A stretch of 64,000 bases of DNA from Megasphaera vaginalis (ex Bordigoni et al. 2020) (GTDB lineage: Bacteria > Bacillota > Negativicutes > Veillonellales > Megasphaeraceae), in NCBI RefSeq assembly GCF_900240295.1, contig NZ_OEQB01000002.1, forward strand, positions 124,001 to 188,000, given 5' to 3'. This document shows positions 54,448-59,158 of this stretch, in pieces. The notes under the pieces are model-generated. The model saw only the letters and a program-made list of their open reading frames with translations. It did not search any database and was not told the origin of the DNA. Positions within the stretch are counted from its first letter, which is position 1. Each line of letters starts with the position of its first letter. Made by a program: the position numbers and the translations under genes.

Positions 54448-54900
54448 ATGAAGTCGATTGTTTTGTATTCCTCATTCACGGGACGGACGAAAGCTGTTGC
54501 CGAAGCTGTAGCCAGCGGTTTGCCGCAAGGGACGCCTTGCGTTTCCGTCGAGCATATTCCTGATGATATTGACTCCTATGACTGCGTGTTTTTCGGCTGC
54601 TGGGTACATGACGGCGTAGCTGACGAAGGTTCTCAGCAAGTACTGGGAAAGCTTCACAACAAGCACATCGCCGTATTTGCCACCATGGCGGAAGATCCGT
54701 TTTCCGATGAAGCGTCCAAGAGCCTGCATAATGCCATTGAGATTCTGCCGCCGGGCAGCCGTGTAGACGGAACCTATATTACTATAGTGCAATCAAAAGA
54801 ACATTTTATGGATATGATTACGGAGACGCCTCATGATATGGACTTGAGCGGGGCCCGGCTGTTCGCGGAAAACACGTTCAGCCGTATTCTGGCCGCTTGA
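54448..54900 (+). CDS. Flavodoxin-family protein
   Basis: 150 residues. FMN phosphate loop YSSFTGRTKAVAEAVASGL (T/S-x-T-G-x-T type), CVFFGCWVHDGVADEGSQQ and IAVFATMAEDP at the isoalloxazine side. A small electron carrier; its position before the haem-uptake genes suggests a link to iron limitation or haem handling, by inference. GGAGAG precedes the start. Confidence 0.88.
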   Translation: MKSIVLYSSFTGRTKAVAEAVASGLPQGTPCVSVEHIPDDIDSYDCVFFGCWVHDGVADEGSQQVLGKLHNKHIAVFATMAEDPFSDEASKSLHNAIEILPPGSRVDGTYITIVQSKEHFMDMITETPHDMDLSGARLFAENTFSRILAA

Positions 54901-55132: not shown

Positions 55133-56081
55133 ATGTCGTACAGGTATGTTCGCTTTTTCACTATTATACTGGCTGCTGCTTTTGTTTGCGCCGTAGCCTG
55201 GGTTTCCTGGGGAAAGACTACTGGCCGGTCAGGAATCATGCAGCGGCTGACGGACAGTACGGGCGCCGTCGTGCTGCTGCCCGCCCATCCGCAGCGCGTC
55301 GTCATTTTGAACGCGTCCAATCTGGATCTGTATTACGGCGCCGGCGGAACTGTTGTCGGCAGGCCGCTGACCTCTTCTTTGATGCCGGAGCTGGCGGAAA
55401 AGGTAGAGGATATTCCTGCTGTCGGTTCCGTTTATCAGCCGAGTGTGGAAGAGATCGCCGCTATGCAACCCGATCTGGTTATCGGTGACGATGTTCCCTT
55501 CCACCGCAGCTTGCGTAACAGTTTGGCGGAAGAAGGAATACCGCTCTATATTAACCGCCTGCATACGTATGATGACGTCTTGCAGACGCTGCGTTTTTTC
55601 GGCCGCCTGACGGGACAGGAAGATACGGCGGCGGCCTTGGAAAAGACGATCGCCAAAGAGTATGCCGTCGTTCACGATAAAGCGATCGGTAAAAAAGCGC
55701 CGCGGACCTTGATCCTTTTCGGCACGCGCGAGGCCTTACAGATGGCTACGGGAAGATCCTTCAGCGGCGCCTTGCTTAACGAAATCGGCGGTGGTAACAT
55801 TGCCGATTTCGTTAAGCAAGGCGCCGCTGGTTCCCTTGGACGAAGCCTATATTGCCGCAGCCGATCCGGAGGTCATCCTCTTCATCAACATGGTGCATGA
55901 TCCGGCCGTAGTGGATTCGTTCCGCAAGGATATGACGGCAGGAAATATCTGGCAGCGTCTCAGCGCCGTCCGCAACGGCCGAGTTCGTTTTCTGCCCGGC
56001 GATCTCTTTGCCGTCAATCCCGGATCGCGCATAGCCAAAGCGATGGCCGTCCTCTATTGTCGGGTGTACAGTACGAAATAG
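55133..56081 (+). pseudogene. Haem/iron ABC transporter binding protein, frameshifted copy
   Basis: Reads as a class III (FepB/HmuT/IsdE-like) binding protein: N-terminal membrane segment, LTDSTGAVVLLPAHPQRVVI, PSVEEIAAMQPDLVIG, GRSFSGALLNEIGGGNIAD. At about 55805 the frame is lost, and the rest (PLVPLDEAYIAAADPEVILF ... FLPGDLFAVNPGSRI) continues in another phase to 56081. The break coincides with a 28-bp perfect inverted repeat. A collinear intact paralogue follows at 56392, so loss of this copy is probably tolerated. GGAGGGG precedes the ATG. Confidence 0.92.
55762..55829. repeat. 28-bp perfect inverted repeat inside the broken binding-protein gene
   Basis: Arms 55762-55789 and 55802-55829 are exact reverse complements around a 12-base loop (GGTGGTAACATT). 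The left arm codes for normal family sequence (SGALLNEIG); the right arm has replaced the sequence expected after NIAD and shifts the frame. Confidence 0.95.
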
Positions 56082-56192: not shown

Positions 56193-56250
56193 ATGAAAAT
56201 AAGGGGCTGTAACCGGATGAGTTTATCCGGTTACAGCCCCTTATTTTCAT
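56193..56250. terminator. 26-bp perfect hairpin between the two binding-protein genes
   Basis: Arms 56193-56218 and 56225-56250 are exact reverse complements with a 6-base loop; the outer ends are A-rich on the left and T-rich on the right (TTATTTTCAT), so it can end transcription both ways. The rest of 56082-56300 is without a gene. Confidence 0.8.
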
Positions 56251-56314: not shown

Positions 56315-56373
56315 TTGACAACAATAGAGAAAAAAAGTACAATCTCATTTGAATGATAATAGATGTCATTATC
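56315..56373 (+). promoter_or_regulatory. Promoter with Fur box for the haem-uptake operon
   Basis: TTGACA (56315-56320), 17-base spacer, TACAAT (56338-56343): near-consensus promoter. GATAATAGATGTCATTATC (56355-56373) has both outer hexamers of the 19-base Fur consensus intact (14 of 19 matches) and covers the transcription start region, so iron-bound Fur should repress the operon. Confidence 0.85.
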
Positions 56374-56391: not shown

Positions 56392-57351
56392 TTGGGAAAG
56401 CCAATACGTATGTTGAGGATTACAGTGGCTTGCTGCCTTGTGGTGTTGATCGGCTGGCTGGGACTGTACGGAAGTAGCGGCGGTAATAGGGCGGTGCGGC
56501 AGGTTACGGACAGTACGGGAACGGTCGTAAACATTCCGGTACATCCGCAACGCGTCGTTTTTCTGAATGTGTCCAACATGGACATGTATTATGCGGCAGG
56601 AGGTACGGCTGTCGGTAAGCCGTCGTCGGAGTCCGTCTCGCCGACGTTGCAGGAAAAGACGAAGGACGTTACGGAAGTCGGTATCATTCATAATCCAAAC
56701 GTTGAAACGATTTTGTCATTAAATCCCGATCTGGTTATCGGGGTCAATGTCCCATTCCATAACAATTTGCGGGCTACGTTGGAAAAAGCGGGGATTCCGT
56801 TGTATATCAATGCGCTTGATTCTTATGATGATGTATTGGAAACGCTGCGCTTTTACGGCGAGCTGACGGGACAGGAGAAAAAGGCGGCAGCGGAAGCCGC
56901 GCGTATTGAAGAGGTACACCGGCAGATTTTTTCCCGTACAGAAGGGAAAGAAGGTCCGCGAACGTTAATTATCTTCGGCGCACCGGGCAGCTTCAGTATG
57001 GCGACGAGCAAGTCTTTCAGCGGTGATTTGCTGACACAACTTGGCGGCGTCAATATTGCTGACGGAGCGGCGGAAATGGAAAGTGGTTTTGTGCCTTTGA
57101 GTATGGAATATATTGCAAAGCGCGATCCGGAAGTTATCCTGTTTATCAGTATGGTAAAACGTCCGGCAATCATTGAAAATTTCCAAGAGGAAATGGCCGG
57201 AAGTTCACTTTGGCAAGGAGTCAGTGCCGTGCAGCAAGGAAGAATTTATTATTTGCCGGGAGAGCTGTTTGCCGTGAATCCCGGGACGCGCATTGCCGAA
57301 GCCTTTGACGTATTGTATAACGATTTGTATGGAAACGGTGCGGCGCAATGA
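56392..57351 (+). CDS. Haem/iron ABC transporter binding protein, intact copy
   Basis: 319 residues: N-terminal signal or membrane anchor (VACCLVVLIGWLGLYG), then a class III binding fold: VTDSTGTVVNIPVHPQRVVF, TILSLNPDLVIGVNVPFHNN, SKSFSGDLLTQLGGVNIADG, REDPE-like AKRDPEVILFISMV and FAVNPGTRIAEAFDVLY. TTG start with GGAGG 8-9 bases upstream; ATG 56410 is an alternative. It delivers haem or an iron chelate to the permease that overlaps its stop. Paralogous to the broken copy upstream. Confidence 0.92.
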   Translation: MGKPIRMLRITVACCLVVLIGWLGLYGSSGGNRAVRQVTDSTGTVVNIPVHPQRVVFLNVSNMDMYYAAGGTAVGKPSSESVSPTLQEKTKDVTEVGIIHNPNVETILSLNPDLVIGVNVPFHNNLRATLEKAGIPLYINALDSYDDVLETLRFYGELTGQEKKAAAEAARIEEVHRQIFSRTEGKEGPRTLIIFGAPGSFSMATSKSFSGDLLTQLGGVNIADGAAEMESGFVPLSMEYIAKRDPEVILFISMVKRPAIIENFQEEMAGSSLWQGVSAVQQGRIYYLPGELFAVNPGTRIAEAFDVLYNDLYGNGAAQ

Positions 57352-58358
57352 TGCTGCGTAACGAAACAACGGATAAACGGCTGGCCTTACGGTATGCCGT
57401 CTTGGCAGCCGGACCGATGATACTGGTTGTTCTCCTTTTTATCGGTATTGCCGCCGGCGCCGTTTCGATGACAATGACGGAAATATGGCAGGTTTTGACC
57501 GGCGGCGGGCAAGGTGAAAATTATCGCATTATTTATTATCTCCGTCTGCCGCGCGTTTTTTGTGCGGCGCTGACGGGGACAAATCTGGCGCTGGCAGGAT
57601 GCATACTACAGGGAATATTGCGTAATCCGCTGGCTGATCCCGGCATTATCGGCGTTACGGCCGGCGCCGGATTGGCGGCGATGGCGCTGATGCTGGTCGT
57701 ACCTGAAATGACGTATCTGGTTCCTTTCGCCGCCTTCCTGGGGGCGCTGGCGGCCGCTGCCGCCGTTTTTCTCCTGGCTTGGGAACGCGGCATCAACCCG
57801 TTACGGCTCATTTTGGCCGGTGTCGCTATTGCCGCCTTTTTCGGCGGCGGCACGGCGGCGCTGTCAGTGTTTTTTTCCGATAAAATTCAAGGCACCGTCA
57901 ATTGGATGGCCGGCGGTTTTGCCGGTGCGAGTTGGCAGCATGTTTTCATGATCCTGCCATATAGCGCTTTCGGCATTGTCGTGGCGTTGTGGAGCTACCG
58001 TAAGCTCAACGCCTTGCAACTGGGTGATGATGTGGCCGCTTCTCTGGGCTTACACGTGGAACGGACACGTTTTTTTCTCGTCGCCATCGCCGCGCTGCTG
58101 GCGGCATCTGCAGTCAGCGTAGCCGGCCTGCTGGGATTTGTCGGGCTGGTCGTTCCACATATTATGCGTCTGCTCGTGGGATCCGACTTTGAATTTCTTT
58201 TGCCGGCTTCAGCTGTTTTCGGTGCCGTTCTGGTTATCGGTGCGGATATCGTTGCCCGGACGGCTTTCAGTCCCGTCGAGGTGCCTGTGGGAATTTTCCT
58301 TTCCTTTTTGGGAGCTCCTTTTTTCCTTTATCTGTTGAAGCGGAGAATGAGAACATGA
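57348..58358 (+). CDS. FecCD-family haem/iron ABC permease
   Basis: 336 residues, ten membrane helices in the BtuC/HmuU fold: RLPRVFCAALTGTNLALAGCILQG near the N-terminus, NPLADPGIIGVTAGAGLAAM, and GLLGFVGLVVPHIMRLLVG with the coupling-helix G-x-x-x-P-H. ATGA-type overlaps on both sides link it to the binding protein and the ATPase. Confidence 0.95.
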   Translation: MMLRNETTDKRLALRYAVLAAGPMILVVLLFIGIAAGAVSMTMTEIWQVLTGGGQGENYRIIYYLRLPRVFCAALTGTNLALAGCILQGILRNPLADPGIIGVTAGAGLAAMALMLVVPEMTYLVPFAAFLGALAAAAAVFLLAWERGINPLRLILAGVAIAAFFGGGTAALSVFFSDKIQGTVNWMAGGFAGASWQHVFMILPYSAFGIVVALWSYRKLNALQLGDDVAASLGLHVERTRFFLVAIAALLAASAVSVAGLLGFVGLVVPHIMRLLVGSDFEFLLPASAVFGAVLVIGADIVARTAFSPVEVPVGIFLSFLGAPFFLYLLKRRMRT

Positions 58359-59158
58359 GTGATACTTTGGAAATGTGCGATGTTGCGCTGGGGTACGGCG
58401 ATCGTGCCGTTGCGGAACATATTAATTTGTCGTTTATGGAGCCGGCGATCGTATCTATTATTGGGCCGAACGGCTCCGGCAAGTCAACTTTGCTCAAGGC
58501 TTTGGGACGCTTGCTGAAACCTCGTTGCGGCACCGTTTATTTAAACGGCGACGATATTCGTTCATGGCCGTCGGCGGAAACGGCCAAACGGCTTTCCGTT
58601 TTGCCGCAGTCGGCGCAGGCTCCCGGCGATATGACGGTCCGTGATTTGGCTGCTTGCGGCAGGATACCGTACCAGTCGGCGTTTTCCCAATTGCAGGAGA
58701 CAGATCGGGAGGCTATTGACAATGCGTTGGCGGCAACGGGGTTGCAAACGATGGCCGACCGTCCGCTTGCAGCGCTTTCCGGCGGCGAACGGCAACGGGC
58801 TTGGTTGGCAATGGCGCTGGCCCAGGAACCGCAGATTTTGCTGCTCGACGAACCGACGACATATTTGGATATTCATTATCAGTTGGACCTGATGGAACTG
58901 ATCCGGCAGCTTCACCAGACTTTGCGGATTACGGTGATCATGGTAATGCACGATTTAAACTATGCCGCCCGGTACAGTCAGCGGCTGATTGCGGTGAAAG
59001 ACGGCGCCGTCATGGCGGACGGTTCTGTGGAAGAGGTGTTTGTACAGCCTGTTTTAGAAGCGCTGTACCAGGTTAAAGCCACGGTATTGAAGGTAGGCGA
59101 GGGCGATGTGACGCAGCTTGTTTGTGTGCCGTATAAGACGGAGTGCGGCATGACCTAG
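58355..59158 (+). CDS. Haem/iron ABC transporter ATPase
   Basis: 267 residues. Walker A IGPNGSGKST near residue 37, Q-loop LPQSAQAPGDMTVRDLAACG, signature ALSGGERQRAWLAMALAQ, Walker B ILLLDEPTTYLDI and switch His VMHDLNYAARYSQ: the FecE/HmuV pattern. Completes the importer begun at 56392. Confidence 0.95.
   Translation: MSDTLEMCDVALGYGDRAVAEHINLSFMEPAIVSIIGPNGSGKSTLLKALGRLLKPRCGTVYLNGDDIRSWPSAETAKRLSVLPQSAQAPGDMTVRDLAACGRIPYQSAFSQLQETDREAIDNALAATGLQTMADRPLAALSGGERQRAWLAMALAQEPQILLLDEPTTYLDIHYQLDLMELIRQLHQTLRITVIMVMHDLNYAARYSQRLIAVKDGAVMADGSVEEVFVQPVLEALYQVKATVLKVGEGDVTQLVCVPYKTECGMT

Follow-up and report, generated by a model that had tools for sequence, protein, structure and literature searches.

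A frameshift at a perfect 28-bp inverted repeat in a spare substrate-binding protein gene of Megasphaera vaginalis: a probable quasipalindrome template switch

In a template switch the growing strand folds on itself, serves for a while as its own template and then goes back to the original one, and an imperfect inverted repeat becomes a perfect one (PMC7202029, PMC8604942, PMC8794818). At the Escherichia coli thyA hotspot and in lacZ reporters, quasipalindrome mutations convert a short imperfect inverted repeat into a perfect one through nascent-strand copying (PMC7202029), and such events can inactivate a gene (PMC7202029, summarising Ripley 1982, Dutra and Lovett 2006). Multinucleotide mutations attributed to template switching in yeast lie in coding sequence and enlarge an arm from a short seed, from 5 to 16 bp in REG2 and from 4 to 11 bp in UTP5 (PMC8604942). 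A template-switch origin has also been proposed for RNA hairpins, in which one event yields a perfect stem and the patterns reach 59 bp (PMC8794818). We describe a locus of Megasphaera vaginalis that resembles these systems: a perfect inverted repeat, with one arm probably grown from a short seed, occupies the point at which a protein-coding gene changes frame.

The broken gene and the repeat at its frame junction

The window (the whole 64,000-nt stretch that was analysed) carries at 55133–56081, on the plus strand, a frameshifted gene for a substrate-binding protein (Peripla_BP_2, IsdE-like), assigned by Pfam, NCBIfam and alignment. Frame 0 holds over 55133–55801, up to the residues NIAD, and frame +1 runs from 55830 to 56081, beginning VPLDEAYIAAADPEVILF; the initial annotation was therefore right that the frame is lost exactly at the hairpin. 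The C-terminal part is open to its end, family-like over ∼83 codons and 54–55% identical to the nearest relatives. PF01497 matched the N-terminal part with 50.9 bits, over the cut-off, and the C-terminal part with 21.1 bits, under the cut-off of 27.5 but at the correct profile positions. TIGR03659 (NCBIfam IsdE) matched the two halves with 62.9 and 31.3 bits and the intact paralogue described below with 160.3 bits, all under the equivalog cut-off of 298.65 bits. By profile the binding proteins are related to IsdE, and heme binding is putative.

The tandem paralogue at 56392–57351 (plus strand; profile matches and repeat scan) is IsdE-like, intact and in frame, and lacks the hairpin. It is followed by a FecCD permease gene and an ATPase gene that belong to the same uptake operon (57348–59158, plus strand; profile matches). 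Together these genes are predicted to form an iron/heme/B12-type uptake operon. The tandem binding-protein genes are separated by a 26-bp perfect intergenic hairpin (56193–56250), terminator-like on both strands; the genome has many such long, perfect hairpins between genes. A strong promoter-like site (56315–56343, 11 of 12) lies ∼50–80 bases upstream of the intact copy, and a Fur-box-like sequence, GATAATAGATGTCATTATC, was spotted by eye before the same copy at 56355–56373. Promoter-like or Fur-box-like sites of comparable strength were not seen upstream of the broken copy. Just upstream of the latter, at 54448–54900, is a flavodoxin-domain gene (Flavodoxin_3, weak BilS match), and a flavodoxin gene is found near the operon in several relatives too.

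The repeat at the frame junction is described here on the plus strand. Its left arm (55762–55789) codes for the family sequence SGALLNEIG, its 12-nt loop (55790–55801, GGTGGTAACATT) for GGNI, of which NI is conserved, and its right arm (55802–55829) consists of the 6 nt GCCGAT (Ala-Asp) and a further 22 nt. As the initial annotation had stated for 55762–55829, the repeat is perfect, with 28/28 nt complementary (100%). GCCGAT agrees with the codons of the conserved Ala-Asp and is complementary to ATCGGC on the other side of the loop, and the further 22 nt are the reverse complement of 55762–55783 at every base. Within the loop, TG/CA and two G·T pairs are possible, which would extend the stem to at least 32 pairs around a 4-nt loop. 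The folding z-score against shuffled sequence was −12.0 as DNA and −11.7 as RNA, and the chance expectation for such a repeat in 2.2 Mb is ∼1e-9 (2.2e6 × ∼100 loop lengths × 4^-28).

Intact relatives and divergence of the spare copy

The ancestral state was read by proxy, from the paralogue and from relatives ∼40–55% identical. In 16 relatives, the paralogue at 56392 included, NIAD (or NIAE) is followed by 24–27 variable nucleotides in frame and then by VPL or a close variant; this interval measures 22 nt in the broken gene. A perfect repeat longer than 7 bp was not found in the NIAD–VPL region of these 16 relatives, and the paralogue is indeed normal and hairpin-free there, as had been claimed, being in frame and with repeats of at most 7 bp.

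Both flanks of the hairpin, NIAD before it and VPLDEAYIA after it, fall within the family alignment, which is what a switch followed by a return would produce. The left arm aligns as well, SGALLNEIG corresponding to the family sequence SGDLLxxLG, and the right arm bears no resemblance to the family in the frames on either side. The match of the left arm to the family directly supports it as the donor, and the assignment of the right arm as its copy is well supported by the alignment. The description of the left arm as conserved family sequence stands in so far as FSGALLNEIG is of the family type, but needs amending at two otherwise invariant positions, where the arm deviates (D213A and L218I). 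The left-side codons of the relatives differ from those of the broken gene, and a clear seed of their own at NIAD–VPL was not seen in them.

A scan of contigs with the family alignment returned 11 named relatives, all of the intact type, the nearest being Megasphaera micronuciformis, Colibacter massiliensis and Anaeroglobus geminatus. A scan of genome contigs with the N-terminal part of the broken gene alone gave no match, and an orthologue of the broken copy was not found among the genus, family or order genomes examined. The loci of the relatives hold one such gene beside the permease, and the second copy upstream is absent from them; judged from these loci, the broken gene is an additional paralogue. 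In A. geminatus (L016, L090) the intact gene has an orthologue that is frameshifted too, near residue 185, away from the NIAD site. This frameshift may be a sequencing error, since the neighbouring hydrolase gene is split as well.

Among 97 positions invariant across eight relatives, 23 are changed in the broken copy and 1 in the intact paralogue. In a tree the broken copy sits on a long branch (1.32), with a weak placement (51/41 support). The changed residues and the long branch suggest that this copy was either weakly constrained or functionally diverging, before the event or since. Because it was diverging fast, the gene may have been under weak constraint when the hairpin arose.

Template switching and competing explanations

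A single quasipalindrome template-switch mutation very probably inactivated this spare gene for an iron/heme-type substrate-binding protein. The nascent strand would pause after ...ATCGGC-GGTGGTAACATT-GCCGAT, and its 3′ end, GCCGAT, would fold back onto ATCGGC through 6 bp, or ∼10 counting TG/CA and the two G·T pairs. The polymerase would then copy ∼22 nt of the left arm as its reverse complement, and the strand would unfold and, from the VPL codons on, be extended on its true template again. As an outcome, 22 nt would replace ∼27 (24 in one relative), and everything downstream in the gene would be read in frame +1. GCCGAT is the likely 6-bp seed and may be ancestral. Given a seed at the inner edge, the simplest version has the plus-sense nascent strand snap back on itself intramolecularly, and intermolecular switching is an alternative route; we infer how many steps there were, which strand took part, whether copying was intra- or intermolecular and what the ancestral bases exactly were. 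The initial annotation had proposed a template switch in which the left arm was the donor and the right arm received the copy. The proposal is well supported by the alignment of the left arm, the replacement of the variable NIAD–VPL loop by the right arm, and 16 relatives in frame and hairpin-free.

The same hairpin could have been made in several steps, by an inverted duplication or microinversion and a separate deletion in an already decaying duplicate. Such a history would fit the long branch and the 23 of 97 invariant positions altered, where the intact copy has 1 of 97. Two or more events in succession, an inverted duplication and a deletion, would have produced an identical trace. A single switch-and-return, however, explains the new arm and the length change together, and the reading frame carries no second lesion, so that we regard a multistep origin as unlikely.

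An assembly or library artefact is still less probable. The right arm or the frame error would then stem from a fold-back chimera or a misassembly, and the real gene would be intact. The assembly is a draft of 17 contigs, and some library types handle hairpins poorly. However, the repeat spans 68 bp, less than an ordinary short read, and lies in the middle of a 346-kb contig, away from its ends, and homologous sequence resumes after it, to which a fold-back chimera would not return. From these two features, the length of the repeat and the return of homology, we infer that an artefact is improbable. In addition, real coding sequences show no general excess of long repeats of the kind that whole-genome amplification chimeras produce, and the broken gene is independently degenerate.

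A functional hairpin, acting as a programmed frameshift, a translational bypass site or a reversible switch controlling the gene, is very improbable. The RNA hairpin at the frame junction is very stable (−64.8 kcal/mol), both reading frames extend over the stem, where they overlap, and the loop that was replaced is variable in the family. Against this, the hairpin is kept at the NIAD–VPL site in 0 of 16 relatives, the left arm codes for ordinary family sequence, the structure is present once in the genome, and conserved residues have been lost. Equally hard to credit is a population in which recurrent template switches turn the locus from one form to the other, with and without the hairpin, so that the second binding protein is phase-variable. 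A palindromic REP- or MITE-like mobile element, which a compact perfect hairpin might recall, was rejected as scarcely credible, for the hairpin occurs in a single copy, the gene became ∼5 nt shorter on balance, not longer, and the left arm, which codes for conserved family sequence, is gene sequence and was not inserted.

Two statements of the initial annotation are not supported. The mutation had been described as "caught in the act", but the only clue to its date is that the remainder of the frame is still open. Reversal, said to be able to restore the gene, would not be simple, because the original 24–27 bases were overwritten and no copy of them exists at the locus; conserved residues have been lost as well.

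Rank in the genome and comparison with described systems

The 28-bp arms are the longest perfect inverted repeat within any ORF of the 2,202,232 bases scanned (2.20 Mb of the 2.206-Mb genome, in stretches), and the hairpin sequence occurs in a single copy in the genome. Runners-up in ORFs that resemble real genes have arms of 19, 18 and 16 bp; the 18-bp repeat belongs to the start region of a transporter ORF and may precede its true start. The remaining repeats of at least 20 bp are intergenic, terminator-like or within ORFs judged by eye to be spurious. In 400 kb of one relative, repeats longer than 13 bp inside ORFs were not found.

Two of the shorter repeats lie outside the window. The 19-bp case is a perfect, loopless 38-bp palindrome, in frame (PSPAPPAVPETATG), in the proline-rich linker of a TonB-like gene (G000:C2:201746-201783, locus L052); it is possibly a second, tolerated template-switch product. 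The 16-bp perfect repeat, with a 10-nt loop, is in an sbcC-like gene (G000:C1:512783-512824, locus L096). In other bacteria sbcC is the gene of a palindrome-processing nuclease.

The mechanism is a textbook one and the locus presents no new phenomenon; it is a clean, unusually long instance in a coding gene that was redundant. A direct match for a natural bacterial case of this kind was not found in the open-access literature, and the locus offers a clear natural bacterial record of a replication error that has been studied mostly in E. coli and yeast. It also suggests that perfect repeats inside coding genes could flag such events in single genomes; here the whole-genome scan returned the present hairpin and two weaker candidates.

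When compared with the events assayed in E. coli, the present one comes from a natural genome assembly, with ∼22 nt apparently copied from a ∼6-bp seed. The longest arm in the yeast table is 16 bp, shorter even than the stretch apparently copied here, and 28 bp is therefore long for a coding gene; the yeast cases described are amino-acid replacements, whereas here the frame is shifted (PMC8604942). The length of the hairpin nevertheless has a precedent in the template-switch patterns of RNA hairpins, given their reach of 59 bp. Those cases concern RNA genes, in which selection maintains the structure, whereas here a protein gene is broken (PMC8794818). Long perfect inverted repeats inside protein genes, as here, are also reported as coding palindromes in the mitochondrial genes of Nematomorpha (PMC6649704). 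Their arms are described as belonging to the coding sequence, whereas in M. vaginalis the frame is lost at the repeat.
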